From Roseimicrobium gellanilyticum (GTDB lineage Bacteria > Verrucomicrobiota > Verrucomicrobiia > Verrucomicrobiales > Verrucomicrobiaceae), in the NCBI RefSeq assembly GCF_003315205.1, contig NZ_QNRR01000002.1:156881-220880 (forward strand): a stretch of 64,000 bases of DNA, in the 5' to 3' direction. A model generated the notes under the pieces. It was given only the letters and a program-made list of their open reading frames with translations. It made no database searches and had not been told where the DNA came from. The position numbers and the translations under genes were made by a program. Positions 3,689 to 52,032 of the stretch are shown in pieces; positions within the stretch are counted from its first letter, which is position 1; each line of letters opens with the position of its first letter.

Positions 3689-4342
3689 GTGACCAAGACC
3701 GAACGCGCCGCCCACGTCCTCGCCCGCCTCACCAAGCTCTATCCGGAGCCACCCATCCCGCTCGACCATACGGACGCCTATACCCTGCTCATCGCCGTGC
3801 TTCTCTCCGCCCAGTGCACGGATGTGCGGGTGAACCTGACAACACCGAAGCTCTTCGCCCTGGCGCGCACCCCCGAAAAGATGATGGAGGTGCCAGTGGA
3901 GGAGATTCAGGCCATCATCAGGCCATGCGGTCTCAGTCCGCAGAAGGCCAAGGCCATCTCCACTCTTTCACGTATTTTAATTGAAAAGCATGGCGGGAAC
4001 GTGCCTGCCGACTTGGAGCAATTGGAGGAACTCCCCGGTGTTGGCCACAAGACCGCCCAAGTGGTCATGGCGCAGAGCTTCGGCGTGCCGAGCTTCCCGG
4101 TGGACACCCACATTCACCGTCTGGCCCAGCGTTGGAAATTGAGCGATGGCAAGTCCGTGACGCAGACGGAGAGGGACTTGAAGCGCCTTTTCCCGAAAGA
4201 AACTTGGAACAAACTGCACCTTCAGATCATCTACTATGGCCGCGAGTACTGCACGGCGCGGGGGTGTGATGGCACCGTGTGCCCTATCTGTCGCGAGCTC
4301 TTTCCCGAGCGGGTGAGGGCGGTGAAGACGAAGAAGGCTTGA
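3689..4342 (+). CDS. nth: Endonuclease III (DNA glycosylase/AP lyase)
   Basis: Removes oxidised pyrimidines and cuts the abasic site in base excision repair. The 217-residue length is normal. The helix-hairpin-helix LPGVGHKTA (115-123) carries the catalytic Lys121, and the catalytic Asp139 sits in VDTHIHR. Four C-terminal cysteines (188, 193, 198, 201) would bind a 4Fe-4S cluster, but their spacing is C-x4-C-x4-C-x2-C rather than the usual C-x6-C-x2-C-x5-C. The start is a GTG at 3689; the nearby ATG at 3681 is out of frame. The gene is followed at once by the REP/RayT element. The family call is firm. Confidence 0.92.
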   Translation: MTKTERAAHVLARLTKLYPEPPIPLDHTDAYTLLIAVLLSAQCTDVRVNLTTPKLFALARTPEKMMEVPVEEIQAIIRPCGLSPQKAKAISTLSRILIEKHGGNVPADLEQLEELPGVGHKTAQVVMAQSFGVPSFPVDTHIHRLAQRWKLSDGKSVTQTERDLKRLFPKETWNKLHLQIIYYGREYCTARGCDGTVCPICRELFPERVRAVKTKKA

Positions 4343-4353
4343 AGTGGGCGCAG

Positions 4354-4373
4354 CCCAACGTAGCTCGCGAGTC
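4354..4373. repeat. REP half-site R1, overlapping the RayT stop codon
   Basis: CCAACGTAGCTCGCGAGTC is the 5' part of the REP consensus used throughout the window. The last bases overlap the stop codon of the RayT gene (4372-4374). Together with R2 at 5186-5215, in inverted orientation, it brackets the transposase gene. Confidence 0.8.
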
Positions 4374-5109
4374 AGCAGGGTGCCATTCCTTGGTCGTCCG
4401 AGAACTCCACCTCCGGCAAAAACAACGTGTACTCGTCCTCCCTCAATTTTGCCTTCTCTGGGTTCGCGGCCAGATACTGTCGGTAATGCTCAAACTGCTC
4501 CCGGCTTCTGACAATATGGTCATAGGTTTCACCCTGCCACACGGAAGCTCTCCGCAATTTGCCCGCTTTGTCAGTCGGCACATCTGCCAATAGCCTTCCT
4601 CCCGATTGAGTGTTGAGGTCTCGCGAAGAGAAGTGTTTCCATGAGTTGCTCATGGCTTTCAACCTTGTGTCACCGAGGCATTGAACAAGCACATGCGCGT
4701 GGTTTGGCATGATCACAAAACCACCCAAGACGTATCTGACCAAGTCGAAGTGGAGAAGCGTCTCCTCAACCAGTTTGCGGGGAGCTGGATTTCTAAATGG
4801 ACACTGGCCATGTCCGGCATCGAGATGTGCATGCATCTTGCGGGTGAAGGTGCGATGGAATTCGATACGGTGACCTTCCGAGAGCGCTTCAAGACGCTGA
4901 TGCCAATGTGGGGAAGAGACGTTGATGCCTCTGGCTTCAAGCCACAGCAATCTCTGTGTTTGGTATTCGGTAAGAATGTGGGAGGGAAGAGAATCGGCGG
5001 TCCTGAACGTGAGAAAGTAGCAGACGTCTGGCTGCTCCCAGTGGGGTAGATTGCGATAGGAAATCGATACCGGAATGTTGGGCTGGAAGAAGCGGAATAT
5101 TCTCGGCAT
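4372..5109 (-). CDS. rayT: REP-associated tyrosine transposase (RayT, IS200-like Y1 family)
   Basis: A single-strand DNA nuclease of the HUH superfamily, thought to mobilise REP palindromes. The HUH motif is MPNHAHVL (134-141, His137 and His139). The candidate catalytic tyrosine is Tyr196 in WQGETYDHIVRS, where RayT proteins carry theirs. At 245 residues it appears full length and uninterrupted. The gene is flanked by REP sequences in opposite orientation (4354-4373 and 5186-5215), the arrangement called a REPtron. The same palindrome recurs at ten or more other intergenic sites in the window. Family and association are strong; present activity is unknown. Confidence 0.9.
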   Translation of the reverse strand: MPRIFRFFQPNIPVSISYRNLPHWEQPDVCYFLTFRTADSLPSHILTEYQTQRLLWLEARGINVSSPHWHQRLEALSEGHRIEFHRTFTRKMHAHLDAGHGQCPFRNPAPRKLVEETLLHFDLVRYVLGGFVIMPNHAHVLVQCLGDTRLKAMSNSWKHFSSRDLNTQSGGRLLADVPTDKAGKLRRASVWQGETYDHIVRSREQFEHYRQYLAANPEKAKLREDEYTLFLPEVEFSDDQGMAPC

Positions 5110-5185
5110 TTATAGAGAAAATGCCAGTGTGAAGACGGGGTGCCAAATGGATTTTTGGTGGGGTTCCAAGGTTCAGCTACAATGA

Positions 5186-5215
5186 CTCGCGAAGGGACTC
5201 GCGAGCTACGTTGGG
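5186..5215. repeat. REP palindrome R2, upstream of RayT
   Basis: CTCGCGAAGGGACTCGCGAG followed by CTACGTTGGG. This is a complete REP unit with a 7-bp stem (CTCGCGA/TCGCGAG), in the inverse orientation to R1. It lies between the RayT start and the stop of the FAD oxidoreductase at 5228. Confidence 0.85.
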
Positions 5216-5227
5216 CTACGAGCTTCG

Positions 5228-7279
5228 CTACTTTACCCGCACCCACTGCACCGCATCCACCGCCACATACCCCTTCGTCCCTTCGTTGCTCACGGTCACC
5301 ACAGCCGGCTTCTCCTTGGTGAATTCAAACTTCCCGAGGGAGACGAAATACTTCTCCACCGTGGGCTTCTGCTGTTGGTTCACGGACACGGTGTCGCTGC
5401 CTTTGGCGTGCTCCACTTTCACGGGAACGTTCTTCGCTCGATTCGGGGCGGACGAGTAGGCGAGGCGGACCTCATAGGTGGCGCTCTCGGGGAGGGAGGT
5501 CTCGAACCGGGCGCTCAGTTTGCCCTTGCTGCCATCGCCGTCATTGTGGCTGGTGCCATCGATGGGGTCGCCGTAGCCGCTGGAGGTCCAGCTTCCTGCG
5601 TAGGTGGCCGCCTCGTCATCGACCACGATGCCAGGAAGGTTCTCTGCCAAGGTCAGGTTCGCGAGGGAGGCGAGTTCAAGCACTTGTCCCTGGGCTACCA
5701 GCTTGGTGCGGAGAGCAGCGATATCGATGTCTTGCACAGGGAGGTTCTTCTCCAAGGCCATGGCGGCGGCCACACCGGTGGAGTGGCCGAGGATCATGAA
5801 CTGGGGCTCCATGCGGATGGAACCATAGGTCACATGCGTGGCGGAGAGTGCGACGGGCACCAGCAGGTTCTCACACTGCTCCTTCTTCGGCGTTACGCTG
5901 CGGTAGGGAATCTGGTAGGGGCGTACCGGAATGTCGAAGTTCCCCTCATCGATGACATACCCCTCTTTGTCCACAAGTCGTTGCACCGCGTGGGAGTCCA
6001 GGATGAAGGCCCCCATGCCAATACTGTCCGGCTTGGTGATGGCCTTCTGGCAATCGCGCTGGCTCATCATGTACTGGCCACGCATGCGGCGGGCTTCACG
6101 CACGTAGAGCTGGTAGGGCCAGTTCTCGTTGTCGGTGAATTCATCCTTTGCCAGCCCGTACTCGCTGGCCTGGGCACGGAGTTCCGCGGGCACGCGTGGG
6201 TCATTGGCGAGGAACCACAGGAAGCCCTGCACATATTCGCGATGGTCCTGCCAGATGCGATCGCGTGTGGCGTAGTCCGCGTCTGGATAGTCCACGTTTC
6301 CGCCCACGTGGTCGGTGCCCTGCACGAGACCGCTGGCGTTCGCATCGAACTTCTGATTTGGCAGCGCGCCGAGGAAGACGAGCTTCTCATACCTCACACC
6401 GGGGAAGGCATCGATGATGCGAGCGAGAATTTCGTACCGCAGCGGGTCATAGTTCACCGGCTTGGGGATGGGCACGCGGTTGGCGGCGTTGTTCGTGAGG
6501 ATGACGCGGAAGTTGTAGGCCTGGGATTTGTTGTCTGCGGTGCCTGGCTCGGTCCACTTGGTATTGATGCCCGGCAGCAGCTTGCCGTCCTTTCCATAGG
6601 CAGAGATCTTTGCCGGCGTGCCGTGAGTGTACTTCTTGTCAGGGCTGACCATGTATTCCTTCTCGCGGAATCGGAACGGTGCAGGACGGAAGCCGGCGAG
6701 GGGTTCATCGAATGCCGCGCGTCCTTCGCGGCCCACGTAGTAGTCCACCTTGGCGAGCGCCATGACATCGCCTTCGTAGCTGGCATCGACGAACAGCCGG
6801 CCCTCATAGGTCCTTCCATCCAGTGTGGTCAGCGAAGAAAGGCGTGCTCCCTTCTTCTCTACGTTTTTCACTCGGGAGCCAAAGACCACATCCACCTTGG
6901 CCTCCTGCAGCATGGCGGTGAAGGCCTGCTCCGCGATGTGCGGCTCCTGGTACCAGAAGTCTTTCGAAGCCGTGCGATTTGGGTCAGCGTAGAGTGCGTC
7001 CACTTTGACGAAGAATTCCTTGGCGATGCCGCCGATGATCTCCGGGCGTGGTCCCACATCGGTGTGGGAGAGGCCGCCGGTGGTCAGGCCGCCGAGGTGT
7101 TTCGTCGTCTCAAGCAGGAGTACGGATTTGCCTTCGCGTGCTGCGGCAATGGAACAGGCAATGCCTCCCGGTGTGCCGCCGTAGACAACGAGGTCATAGG
7201 TCTTCTCCGGAGCAGCGTGTGAGATGGCGCTCATCATCAGGCAGCCAAGGACGAGGAGAAACAGGAAGGCGGGCTTCAT
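5228..7279 (-). CDS. Secreted FAD-dependent oxidoreductase with golvesin/xanthan-lyase-like C-terminal domain
   Basis: A 683-residue protein starting with a signal peptide (hydrophobic 4-20, ISHAA cleavage region). A FAD-binding Rossmann motif follows (YGGTPGGIA, 33-41) with downstream LLLETTKHLGGLTTGGLS, typical of the FAD_oxidored family common in Verrucomicrobia and Planctomycetes. From about residue 560 a beta-rich segment ends GYVAVDAVQWVRVK, as in golvesin-like or xanthan-lyase carbohydrate-associated domains. It may oxidise a sugar or polysaccharide outside the cytoplasm, but the substrate is unknown. The ATG at 7279 was chosen over 7318 because it begins the signal peptide. Confidence 0.85.
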   Translation of the reverse strand: MKPAFLFLLVLGCLMMSAISHAAPEKTYDLVVYGGTPGGIACSIAAAREGKSVLLLETTKHLGGLTTGGLSHTDVGPRPEIIGGIAKEFFVKVDALYADPNRTASKDFWYQEPHIAEQAFTAMLQEAKVDVVFGSRVKNVEKKGARLSSLTTLDGRTYEGRLFVDASYEGDVMALAKVDYYVGREGRAAFDEPLAGFRPAPFRFREKEYMVSPDKKYTHGTPAKISAYGKDGKLLPGINTKWTEPGTADNKSQAYNFRVILTNNAANRVPIPKPVNYDPLRYEILARIIDAFPGVRYEKLVFLGALPNQKFDANASGLVQGTDHVGGNVDYPDADYATRDRIWQDHREYVQGFLWFLANDPRVPAELRAQASEYGLAKDEFTDNENWPYQLYVREARRMRGQYMMSQRDCQKAITKPDSIGMGAFILDSHAVQRLVDKEGYVIDEGNFDIPVRPYQIPYRSVTPKKEQCENLLVPVALSATHVTYGSIRMEPQFMILGHSTGVAAAMALEKNLPVQDIDIAALRTKLVAQGQVLELASLANLTLAENLPGIVVDDEAATYAGSWTSSGYGDPIDGTSHNDGDGSKGKLSARFETSLPESATYEVRLAYSSAPNRAKNVPVKVEHAKGSDTVSVNQQQKPTVEKYFVSLGKFEFTKEKPAVVTVSNEGTKGYVAVDAVQWVRVK

Positions 7280-7332
7280 CAGGGTGGGAAAGGCGTACAC
7301 CCTGCAAGTGCCAATCACGATGGATTGGACAA

Positions 7333-8278: not shown

Positions 8279-8586
8279 GGCCTACCAGCTTAAGGTTTCT
8301 TGAAAATAAGGGGTTCCTTAAGATTTCCCAGAAAATGCGAAAATGGCAAGTTTTTCCTTCAGGAAATGGAGGGGATGGTGGCTGCTGTAGCTCAACGTAG
8401 CTCGCGAGTCCCTTCGCGAGGAGAGTCGGTCGGTGGGCTGGCCACGCCAAAGCCGCACCAAAGGGCGATGCCGGGCAATCGGCCTTGATGTTCGGAACAT
8501 GATGAACCGAAACTTCCTTGGAGGGTCTTTTGCCCTGCACTGAGATCTCGCGAAGGGGCTCGCGAGCTACGTTGAGCTGCCTTGGC
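8279..8586. repeat. Intergenic region holding an inverted REP pair (R3 8392-8420, R4 8547-8574)
   Basis: No gene is seen. R3 (CAACGTAGCTCGCGAGTCCC and onward) and R4 (its inverse, with one change: GGGGCT for GGGACT) enclose about 125 bases. This makes a REPIN-like doublet between the outer-membrane protein start and the HIT gene stop. The first 100 bases, AT-richer, may hold the promoter of the outer-membrane protein gene. Confidence 0.8.
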
Positions 8587-15270: not shown

Positions 15271-15336
15271 CAACGTAGCTCGCGAGTGTATCTACCCCTG
15301 AAGGAAAACTCGCGAAGGGACTCGCGAGCTACGTTG
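15271..15336. repeat. Inverted REP pair R5 (partial) and R6
   Basis: R5 at 15271-15287 is truncated after CGCGAGT. R6 at 15309-15336 is complete and inverted. The doublet lies between the start of the SnoaL-like gene and the GntP-type permease. Confidence 0.8.
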
Positions 15337-19698: not shown

Positions 19699-19724
19699 GC
19701 GTAGCTCGCAAGTCCCTTCGCGAG
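19699..19724. repeat. REP palindrome R7
   Basis: A single REP copy with one change (CTCGCAAG for CTCGCGAG), between the GMC gene start and element F1. Confidence 0.7.
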
Positions 19725-26060: not shown

Positions 26061-26151
26061 CAACGTAGCTCGCGAGTCCCTTCGCGAGGTATTTGTCACC
26101 AAGTGAGTTTGCCACCTTCCTGATCTCGCGAAGGGACTCGCGAGCTACGTT
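26061..26151. repeat. Inverted REP pair R8/R9
   Basis: R8 (26061-26088) and R9 (26125-26151) are complete copies in opposite orientation, 36 bases apart. This doublet sits between two minus-strand genes, and R9 ends 8 bases before the stop of the next gene. Confidence 0.85.
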
Positions 26152-34724: not shown

Positions 34725-34827
34725 GCTTTCTAGCCCGCATGGTGCCACTCCACATGAGGTGGAGTGGCCAAATGGCAAATTTCAAAGCGAAGCGGCCACC
34801 AACGTAGTTCGCGAGTCCCTTCGCGAG
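34725..34827. repeat. Composite repeat with REP R10, left of the DUF4132 gene
   Basis: About 100 bases (AGCCCGCATGG, CCACTCCAC/GTGGAGTGG hairpin at 34744-34767, AAATTTCAAAGCGAAGCGGC, then REP at 34800-34827) recur after the DUF4132 gene at 37353-37462 in the same orientation. The gap 34687-35086 otherwise holds no supported gene. Confidence 0.75.
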
Positions 34828-37352: not shown

Positions 37353-37538
37353 TACGCAAGCATTCCAGCCCGCGTGGCACTACTCCACGACAGATGAAGT
37401 GGCCGAACAGCAAATTTCAGAGCGAAGCGGCCACCAACGTAGCTCGCGAGTCCCTTCGCGAGTTTTGCGTTCGGCCACTCGCGAAGGGACTCGCGAGCTA
37501 CGTTAGAGCAGCCGCCGAAGGCTCGGCGGACTACTTTC
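37353..37538. repeat. Composite repeat with inverted REP pair R11/R12 and E4 palindrome
   Basis: A second copy of the sequence before the DUF4132 gene leads into REP R11 (37435-37462). R12 (37478-37504) follows in inverse orientation, then a single E-family palindrome (37511-37538) touching the TAA stop of the next minus-strand gene (37539-37541). Confidence 0.85.
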
Positions 37539-50280: not shown

Positions 50281-52032
50281 ATGGCTGCTGGCACGATTGA
50301 GGCATTCATGGAATCAACGTTGCGAGCAACTTTCGCGCAGGCACGCGTCCACGGGGCGGCTTTGCGGCACCGGGTGAGGCAGGGCGTGCTGGAGGGCAGG
50401 TTGATGACCACCACCATCGCGGCCTTCATGGCGCTGTACATGGTGGCGGCATACATCCTTGTGAATCACGGCCTGCACTTCGTTCACAACCTGCCGCTTC
50501 TGGGCCCGCTCCTCACGGAACGCATGCTTTACCTGCTGTTCTTCTTCTTTTTTCTCATGCTGGTAATCTCGAACTCCGCGATCACCGGCATCAGTCTCTT
50601 CCGCAGGCAGGAAACGGGCTGGCACCTCAGCCTGCCCATGCCGCACAGCAGCATCGTGCTGTGGCGTACGGTGGAGGGCCTGCTGCTTTCCAGTTGGGGC
50701 TTGCTGCTCTTGAGCGCGCCCATCCTTGTCGCCTTTGGAAATGTACTGGATGCGAATGCCTCGTTCTACGTCCAGAGCCTGCTTGCCGTCATCGCGCTCA
50801 TTTCCGTGGCGTCAAACATCAGCTCCTGGCTGCTGCTCTTCGTCGTGCGCTGCTACCGTCCCTGGTGGCTGAAGGCGGCGATGGCGCTTGGCATTCTGCT
50901 CGTCGTGGCGATTTCATGGCAAATCCGTGAGCAACAGACCACGCGTCTCATCTCGAGCGACGTCGCTGCGAACGTGAACCAACTGCTGCGGCACACCAAG
51001 CTCTGCACGCATCCCTTGCTGCCCAGTTCGTGGGTGGCGGAGGTGGTCATCTCCAGTGGCAGGGGATTGCCCGGTCGCTCCTGGTTCTACCTGCTCACGC
51101 TCATCAGCTACGCGCTCGTGGTGTGGCTGCTCACCCGCTGGCTCGCAGGCCGCATCTTCTATGATACATGGAACATGGCCATGGCGAGAATGGAAGGCCG
51201 GCAGCTCGCGAGAGGGCAGAAGGTCTTCGGCGCACGTGGGCACAGCGGTCTGCGCAGATGGTTCTCGGTCATGGGCCGGCAGACGCAGGCGCTGGTGATG
51301 AAAGATGTTCGCATCTTTCTGCGAGAGCCCATGCAGTGGGGCCAGTGCGCGCTCATCTTTGGCCTGCTGCTCGTGTACACTTCAAACCTGCGCCACCTGA
51401 GCTATAACTATCGCGATCCACTCTGGAGCTCGATCACCAGCTACCTGAATCTCACGGTGTGCTGCCTCGCGATGTCCACGCTGAGCACGCGTTTTGTATT
51501 TCCCCAGTTCAGCCTCGAAGGGCAGCGGCTCTGGATCCTGGGACTGGCTCCCTATCCCCTGACCAAAGTGCTGAGTCAGAAACTGTGGCTGAACGTCTGT
51601 GTCGTCACGCCCGTGACCACCCTGCTGGTGATCATTTCCTCGTTCAGTCTAAAGCTCTCAGTTGAGCGTTCTGCCTTCTTTGTCATGGCGATCATGATGC
51701 AAACGGTGGGGCTCAATGCGCTCGCTCTCTCCCTTGGCGCCCTGCTGCCAAATTTCCGTGAGACGAACTCTGCAAAGATCGTGTCCGGCTTCGGAGGCAC
51801 GCTGTGTCTGGTGCTCAGTTTCTTCTACATCGTGCTCACTGTGGGCGTGCTCATCGTGCCCGCAGTGCATCGTCATGCCGCATTGGCAAAAGGTCTCGTG
51901 TTTCCCGAACTTGGACGTCCGGAAATATTGAGCCTTATGGCAGTGTTCATATTAACAGTTTTCTCCGGTGGAGTGCCGTACTTTTTCGCGTTCCACCGAA
52001 CAAAACGATTGGCAAATTTAGGAAATCCGTAA
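50281..52032 (+). CDS. Large ABC-2-like membrane permease protein
   Basis: A 583-residue membrane protein with about ten to twelve hydrophobic helices in two clusters (about 45-240 and 375-575). The charged middle segment (WNMAMARMEGRQLARGQK, then QTQALVMKDVRIFLREP) and LWILGLAPYPLTKVL resemble ABC-2 exporter permeases found in Verrucomicrobia. No ATPase gene is present in this operon, so its partner must lie elsewhere if it is an ABC exporter. It is the first gene of an operon with two small membrane proteins. Confidence 0.75.
   Translation: MAAGTIEAFMESTLRATFAQARVHGAALRHRVRQGVLEGRLMTTTIAAFMALYMVAAYILVNHGLHFVHNLPLLGPLLTERMLYLLFFFFFLMLVISNSAITGISLFRRQETGWHLSLPMPHSSIVLWRTVEGLLLSSWGLLLLSAPILVAFGNVLDANASFYVQSLLAVIALISVASNISSWLLLFVVRCYRPWWLKAAMALGILLVVAISWQIREQQTTRLISSDVAANVNQLLRHTKLCTHPLLPSSWVAEVVISSGRGLPGRSWFYLLTLISYALVVWLLTRWLAGRIFYDTWNMAMARMEGRQLARGQKVFGARGHSGLRRWFSVMGRQTQALVMKDVRIFLREPMQWGQCALIFGLLLVYTSNLRHLSYNYRDPLWSSITSYLNLTVCCLAMSTLSTRFVFPQFSLEGQRLWILGLAPYPLTKVLSQKLWLNVCVVTPVTTLLVIISSFSLKLSVERSAFFVMAIMMQTVGLNALALSLGALLPNFRETNSAKIVSGFGGTLCLVLSFFYIVLTVGVLIVPAVHRHAALAKGLVFPELGRPEILSLMAVFILTVFSGGVPYFFAFHRTKRLANLGNP

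Follow-up and report, generated by a model that had tools for sequence, protein, structure and literature searches.

A probable REPtron in Roseimicrobium gellanilyticum, and relatives of its transposase lying in frame within host proteins

A 64,000-nucleotide stretch of the Roseimicrobium gellanilyticum genome (contig NZ_QNRR01000002.1, positions 156,881 to 220,880; hereafter the window) contains a gene for a REP-associated tyrosine transposase (RAYT, or TnpA-REP) lying between inverted copies of a repetitive extragenic palindrome (REP). We consider it very probable that this feature is a REPtron, i.e., two REPs placed head to head with, as their spacer, the gene of a Y1 HUH transposase that recognises the REP and that is present here in single copy. 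This reading follows from the motifs of the RAYT, its profile match to a solved transposase (4er8), the number of REPs in the genome, the orientation of their pairs, their crowding around the gene and an empty site in a congener. Taken alone, the window copy is ordinary, a REPtron of a known kind; what appears to be new is an in-frame form among its relatives. It is probable, if less firmly so, that REPtrons move as whole units and that in this phylum they have repeatedly entered coding genes in frame, such that LeuRS, CarB, MetH, PriA and other housekeeping enzymes carry a transposase domain of some 200 amino acids and still work, the transposase being expressed from, and sheltered by, a near-indispensable gene. 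The window RAYT would then be an intergenic member of this family.

The repeat unit is GTAGCTCGCGAGTCCCTTCGCGAG, which together with its tag reads AAC-GTAG-CTCGCGA-GTCCCT-TCGCGAG and comprises a 7-bp hairpin in a 24-nt core. The RAYT gene and the repeats that frame it lie as follows (window coordinates):

4357-4373, plus strand: left half-REP, AAC-GTAG-CTCGCGAG-TC, with GTAG starting at 4360 and the 3' arm missing
4372-5109, minus strand: intact TnpA-REP/RAYT gene, 245 amino acids, with H137-x-H139, W191-Q192 and the catalytic Y212 in YLAANP
5186-5212, minus strand (core 5186-5209): right REP, complete, with tag, both arms and loop as written above

An earlier, sequence-only reading of the window had claimed an intact transposase frame, which is borne out, and an overlap of the left REP with the RAYT stop codon, which is real and amounts to only two nucleotides (4372-4373). 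It also placed the gene between inverted REPs; this holds in full for the right REP, which folds as GTAG plus a 7-bp hairpin (-7.7 kcal/mol, z -3.4), whereas the left consists of half a REP and fails to fold. As for the active site, the same reading named His137, His139 and Tyr196. In an alignment of 20 RAYTs, H137, H139, W191 and Y212 are invariant, and the histidine pair, the HUH motif of RAYTs, therefore stands; position 196, however, is either Tyr or Phe (Phe in several sequences), and is His in three further relatives. A profile built from the 20 sequences matched the solved TnpArep 4er8 (E 4e-7), with PNHvH pairing with PEHMH, and YiaeNP, which holds Tyr212, pairing with YIYINP. Because Tyr212 is invariant and aligned to the tyrosine of 4er8, and because position 196 is variable, the nucleophile is Tyr212 rather than Tyr196, which puts the catalytic tyrosine in the Y[IVL]xxNP setting expected of a RAYT. 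The profile was needed for this match: A search of the PDB with the single window sequence returned nothing relevant. An AlphaFold2 model made from three sequences had a mean predicted local distance difference test score of 38 and was unusable. Two marks of IS200/IS605 elements, a Pfam Y1_Tnp match above its cut-off and multiplication of the whole element, are both lacking in the window RAYT, which has one full-length DNA copy in the genome.

In the genome of the window (G000), the REP occurs 57 times at no more than three mismatches, with 41 copies exact, and a reversed control pattern does not occur at all; such a count had been named earlier as a check. The RAYT is accordingly flanked by GTAG hairpins, complete on the right and half on the left, that are repeated in the genome. 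At the same threshold the window holds 10 full REPs in addition to half copies at 4360 and 15275, so that the earlier statement that the palindrome recurs at ten other points is right if halves are counted (nine full copies and one half beyond the RAYT's own two). Listed against the closed genome of a congener (G001), the other copies are:

8397-8420, plus strand: exact REP, left member of a head-to-head pair; none in the matching G001 interval
8547-8570, minus strand: REP with 1 mismatch, right member of the 8397 pair
15275-15286, plus strand: half-REP, GTAG and first arm only
15309-15332, minus strand: exact REP; a REP pair is present in the matching G001 interval
19701-19724, plus strand: REP with 1 mismatch, inside the first ~45 codons of a listed GMC-oxidoreductase frame; none in the matching G001 interval
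26065-26088, plus strand: exact REP, left member of a pair that is in G001 too
26125-26148, minus strand: exact REP, right member of the 26065 pair
34804-34827, plus strand: REP with 1 mismatch; none in the matching G001 interval
37439-37462, plus strand: exact REP, left member of a pair; none in the matching G001 interval
37478-37501, minus strand: exact REP, right member of the 37439 pair

Two further 12-mer matches with one mismatch, at 51201 and 52427, have neither the AAC tag nor a second arm.

Wherever the starts of neighbouring REPs are less than 160 bp apart, the two copies are head to head with GTAG outward (16 of 16 cases in G000 and 9 of 9 in G001), which is the layout of REP doublets forming hairpins (REPINs) and of bacterial interspersed mosaic elements (BIMEs), and the RAYT occupies the spacer of a pair oriented in this same way. 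The copies are also strongly crowded. In G000, 13 of the 38 REP groups (39 if two copies near the ends of sampled stretches count) fall in C2:1-200000, the stretch that includes the RAYT, against an expectation of 0.96 (binomial P 5e-12); and in G001, 12 of 26 groups fall within one 500-kb stretch, for which 5000 random draws gave at most nine. The two crowded stretches are partly syntenic. The replication terminus is not simply the cause of this crowding: The GC skew of G001, taken in 20-kb samples, passes from plus to minus at 3.4-3.76 Mb (minus samples also occur at 1.4 and 2.6 Mb), and the crowd lies at about 4.36-4.86 Mb. The full window copies, except that at 19701, lie outside open reading frames of at least 300 amino acids, in line with ordinary stem-loops, e.g., transcription terminators, whose closeness to the RAYT is due to chance; but the identity of the 24-mers, the fixed AAC-GTAG tag, the head-to-head pairs and the crowding around the RAYT make this explanation highly improbable.

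Among RAYT loci examined, the window REP frames this RAYT only, which supports the REPtron arrangement proposed in the sequence-only reading. It was found at none of 23 other RAYT loci in G000 and G001 (two G001 RAYTs lay outside this hairpin scan); ten of the 23 had a repeated hairpin of different sequence, tagged GTAG, GGAG or GCAG, and 13 had none by that scan. G001 has 17 matches to the RAYT profile; the 16 that were measured all lie more than 5 kb from any copy of the window REP (the nearest is 5.7 kb away), and the seventeenth, a weak match (E 7e-5), lies some 23 kb from the nearest copy. Three other G000 RAYTs have close G001 relatives in the tree described below (L026-L209, L030-L221 and L027-L049), and RAYTs are therefore often shared between these genomes. 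Two RAYT-like frames of 360-364 amino acids (L031 in G000:C22 and L220 in G005) have a profile match split in two, as if inserted into.

These observations bear on the idea that the REPs were spread by another RAYT and that the window RAYT came later, in G000 only, to an existing REP pair. The genes on either side of the RAYT are:

3689-4342, plus strand: left neighbour, HhH-GPD base-excision repair protein
5228-7318, minus strand: right neighbour, FAD-dependent oxidoreductase

A late arrival would agree with the finding that REPs are common to G001 and the gene is not, and with the G+C content at third codon positions (GC3) of the RAYT, 0.61 as against 0.78 in both neighbours. However, GC3 is 0.58-0.73 in 13 other measured RAYTs of G000 and G001, so that a low value is normal for RAYTs and was dropped as a mark of recent transfer; and since no other examined RAYT locus in either genome is framed by the window REP, we regard a late arrival as unlikely.

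The orthologous site in G001 measures 40 bp, compared with 884 bp in G000, and has no RAYT; the best-scoring G001 homologue of the window RAYT is 43% identical to it, and another is 45% identical. The 40 bp consist of a different palindrome, with GTAG at one end and CTAC at the other. This site (G001:4420478-4420517) is the double-foot form of a second GTAG-tagged palindrome, whose arm (GTAGTCCGCCGAG) is also present in the window, as inverted pairs 142-151 bp apart (736/878, 7338/7489 and 29136/29284) and singly at 37522 and 43023.

Whether REP positions follow the presence of the RAYT in relatives had been put forward as the comparison that could overturn the sequence-only reading, and its outcome is mixed. 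The REP, at no more than three mismatches, is confined to 4 of 68 genomes of the family, with 57, 35, 3 and 5 copies; 25 of the 38 G000 groups could be placed between matching G001 flanks, for 16 of which the G001 interval contains a REP (one of them marginal, at five mismatches) and for nine of which it lacks a full REP, the nine including the RAYT locus and one group with a half only. These intervals are up to some kilobases wide, and 13 groups were unplaced, there being little G001 sequence or unmatched flanks; one of these, at a contig end, has a single flank and the REP in common with G001. For the REP at 19701, G000 and G001 are too diverged for an empty-site comparison. Because many REPs are shared by position with G001, which is without the gene, many must be older than the split and have outlived the gene. 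A few diverged copies of the window REP, including a head-to-head pair, occur in another genus (G014:C83:6213-6285, and G005).

Several points weigh against the REPtron reading. The window RAYT scores under the curated cut-offs of both family models, with 60 bits for NCBIfam REP_Tyr_transpos (NF047646; E 2.3e-16; cut-off 80) and a weak 15.4 bits for Pfam Y1_Tnp (cut-off 23), the former being one model's cut-off, reached in only 1 of 14 control genomes, rather than a defining biological trait. The left half-REP folds no better than shuffled sequences (163 of 200 shuffles were equal or better), and with one member halved and unfolding the window unit may now be unable to move. G001 has its 35 REPs in spite of having no such RAYT, and the absence of the gene there may reflect loss rather than gain in G000. 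Lastly, the comparison of REP positions is one at the level of congeners.

Related to these points is the explanation that the RAYT is domesticated and quiet and moves nothing, the REPs being kept, independently of the transposase, by some role in the host such as stabilising mRNA 3' ends or binding proteins. Across 23 pairs of orthologous REPs from G000 and G001, identity reaches 96.4% (532/552) in the 24-nt core, and the preceding AAC is nearly invariant (68/69), whereas the 12 nt on either side are only 46% and 50% identical, and this despite the lack of such a RAYT in G001; the contrast suggests selection or conversion, although the pairs were hand-picked to have at most three mismatches in both genomes, which inflates the core identity. 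In G001 the cores at shared sites are near-identical, and spacers as well as flanks have diverged to 46-50%. Single-copy RAYTs with vertical inheritance are also the published view, in the part of PMC8049555 available. On the other hand, the nine placed groups lacking a full REP in G001 are what movement would predict, and the RAYT could have been lost from G001 recently. We therefore view domestication as possible but rather doubtful. The claim that the RAYT may still spread REP doublets is favoured by its intact frame and motifs and by the near-identical head-to-head REPs, and disfavoured by the persistence of REPs in G001 without the gene; the window RAYT may be active at present. The two genomes form a natural pair, with and without the gene, for the open question of whether REPs persist once their transposase is gone.

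Under the REPtron reading, the RAYT protein would bind the GTAG-tagged hairpin as single-stranded DNA, Tyr212 would cut the single-stranded REP, and the protein would re-join the DNA. Through such cutting and re-joining, REP pairs would have spread to further sites, most of them intergenic; many of these sites are nearby, and many of the copies would predate the separation of G000 and G001. The REP-RAYT-REP arrangement could also insert as one unit, given that RAYT relatives are found as in-frame insertions within host genes, in many cases bounded on either end by REP-like inverted repeats; these in-frame units, in host genes for which related genomes have uninterrupted versions, count in favour of the REPtron reading.

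In a first sample the window RAYT had at least 150 matches, those listed coming from 57 genomes (G000 among them), and 20 of the 150 listed lie in open frames of at least 400 amino acids. We analysed 19 of these together with one 382-amino-acid frame (the twentieth, L208, was scanned with Pfam separately), and Pfam was run on 19 of the 20 proteins, leaving out L259, at E <= 0.001. Eight (L246, L248, L250, L253, L254, L255, L256 and L262), comprising CarB, two LeuRS, two MetH, ClpB, a glycosyltransferase and HsdR, have the RAYT between two firm host matches, and each of the eight has an inverted repeat of at least 18 nt around the RAYT. In L245, an Eco57I-type methylase, and L249, a TPR protein, the first-side stretches fail on their own, and in an adenosine deaminase (L252) the second host stretch has no recorded position. 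The rest are one-sided, without a host match or cut by contig ends, and include RAYT-NUDIX proteins in several genomes. A second sample, of 115 genomes across the phylum, yielded 62 matches to a LeuRS-borne RAYT, 17 of them in frames of at least 400 amino acids from 12 genomes; of the 16 analysed (the remaining one was already available), six are firm on either side of the RAYT (XseA, a B12/radical-SAM protein, HypF, PriA twice and a CCA-adding-type nucleotidyltransferase), and in an Eco57I-type methylase (L309) one side is weak. Over both samples, firm host domains lie on either side of the RAYT in 14 of 35 scanned proteins and weaker ones in 3 of 35. A single genome of 2.2 Mb in 7 contigs (G113) has in-frame RAYTs in three host genes, those for XseA (L295), the B12/radical-SAM protein (L297) and PriA (L307). 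Chance open frames are ruled out for those proteins in which host domains flank the RAYT in one and the same reading frame. No earlier report of in-frame RAYTs was found in the literature searched, which held few subscription journals.

Alignment to solved structures shows how closely the host resumes after the insert: from residue 366 to 369 around 235 amino acids in LeuRS, from 482 to 484 around 245 in CarB, and from 507 to 516 around 243 in ClpB. LeuRS, CarB and MetH occur without the insert in related genomes, and the aligned host parts are 64-89% identical (12 comparisons, with at least 75% in 11); in these 12 automatic protein alignments only MetH gave one clean gap, LeuRS and CarB being split or missed, and the borders were therefore taken from the structures. 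Mapping junctions at the DNA level against orthologues was tried, and the sequences are too diverged for exact borders or target duplications. In the five genomes checked, the interrupted gene was the sole copy found: G005 and G011 have no strong LeuRS match besides the one with a RAYT (the weaker matches, which occur in all searched genomes, resemble other synthetases), and the interrupted CarB in G054 and the interrupted MetH in G042 and G022 are likewise the only ones found, although these genomes are drafts, 87-96% complete, in which a second copy is possible. In G046 the MetH domain is split over two contigs.

Inverted repeats of at least 18 nt flank 16 of the 20 RAYTs of the first sample, a length not reached in 100 shuffled controls, where the longest was 16 nt. 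The in-frame layout would be a REP-coded linker, a complete RAYT domain, a second REP-coded linker and the remaining host protein. Active-site motifs are kept in most in-frame copies tested: In the first sample 18 of 20 RAYTs have the HUH as well as the Tyr motif, and in the second, where the aligned stretches are short in several cases, both were found in 8 of 16. The XseA-borne RAYT (L295), whose match is nearly complete, has neither motif and may be inactive. Because the interrupted genes are sole copies with conserved host parts and conserved frames, we infer that the fused proteins function without splicing. Inteins and introns were considered as explanations for the in-frame relatives and rejected: No Hint or intein domain was found in the 35 proteins scanned (Pfam, E <= 0.001), and Rfam, at gathering score, gave no match, whether to an IStron or to an intron of group I or II, across the window and 12 in-frame loci.

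Several comparisons speak to the age and recurrence of the in-frame state. In LeuRS proteins of two genera (L248 and L254) the RAYTs occupy the same editing-domain region but share only 50% identity, a hint that insertion there happened more than once. In PriA, two species (L307 in G113 and L304 in G115) have a RAYT at the same site, with nonsynonymous divergence (dN) of 0.33, synonymous divergence (dS) of 2.06, near saturation, and dN/dS of about 0.16; the corresponding dN and dS for PriA are 0.09-0.14 and 1.0-1.1. The G115 copy has His at the catalytic Tyr position, and in this pair the peptide NVDATPSSR, probably REP-coded, occurs at the border, with variants within the RAYT. A RAYT upstream of a NUDIX domain was found in L257 (G012), L258 (G002) and L259 (G018; by sequence), three species of one genus, and also in L208 and L260. 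The RAYTs of L258 and L259 have dN 0.056 and dS 0.49, and in the other two comparisons silent sites are saturated or nearly so and the proportion of nonsynonymous differences (pN) is 0.10; judged from these substitution rates, the RAYT of RAYT-NUDIX appears to be under purifying selection where measurable. Silent divergence is greater in the RAYT than in the NUDIX part. On a tree of 66 RAYTs, in which the window RAYT groups with stand-alone genes, the in-frame label needs six changes, at least five of them on well-supported branches, and the in-frame state is therefore recurrent.

How the window and its relatives compare with known systems can be stated as far as the available parts of the cited papers extend. 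The REPtron of E. coli MG1655, with its TnpA-REP (4er8), likewise has a Y1 HUH gene beside GTAG-tagged hairpins, and the HUH and Tyr motifs align; but the window REP has a perfect 7-bp stem and a 6-nt loop with no bulge, the window protein is longer (245 amino acids versus 165 in the 4er8 chain), and one full REP and a half stand in place of three REP pairs (PMC6006769). Perfect-stem GTAG REPs are shared with the group 3 REPtrons of Stenotrophomonas and Marinomonas (PMC8266576). In Marinomonas the REPs are, as here, concentrated near tnpA, which was read as recent arrival (PMC8266576), whereas part of the G000 crowding is shared by position with the congener and is therefore old. The GTAG tag, head-to-head dimers and occurrence in bacteria of the Planctomycetes-Verrucomicrobia-Chlamydiae group agree with the GTAG REP superfamily, which includes Verrucomicrobia (PMC3733652). 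By motifs alone (NHxH, WQ and Y-x-x-NP), the window RAYT resembles TnpA-Y1 subclass 2.4, in which REPs lie in frame within tnpA-REP genes and double-foot REPs occur (PMC6006769). Intragenic REPs and the Rickettsia palindromic elements are short palindromes in frame within genes, with inserts of about 20-82 amino acids (PMC3733652); the in-frame relatives described here, by contrast, hold a whole transposase, and the available part of that paper describes no in-frame transposase. The relatives, though not the window copy, resemble inteins and homing elements in being mobile in-frame inserts in essential genes that keep the host frame open, but differ in that the three measured inserts are filled by the RAYT and its linkers.

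If these fusions are what they appear to be, a transposase domain within LeuRS, CarB, PriA or ClpB would represent an intein-like way of life without splicing, and the in-frame RAYTs would be natural domain-insertion experiments as well as an annotation hazard.
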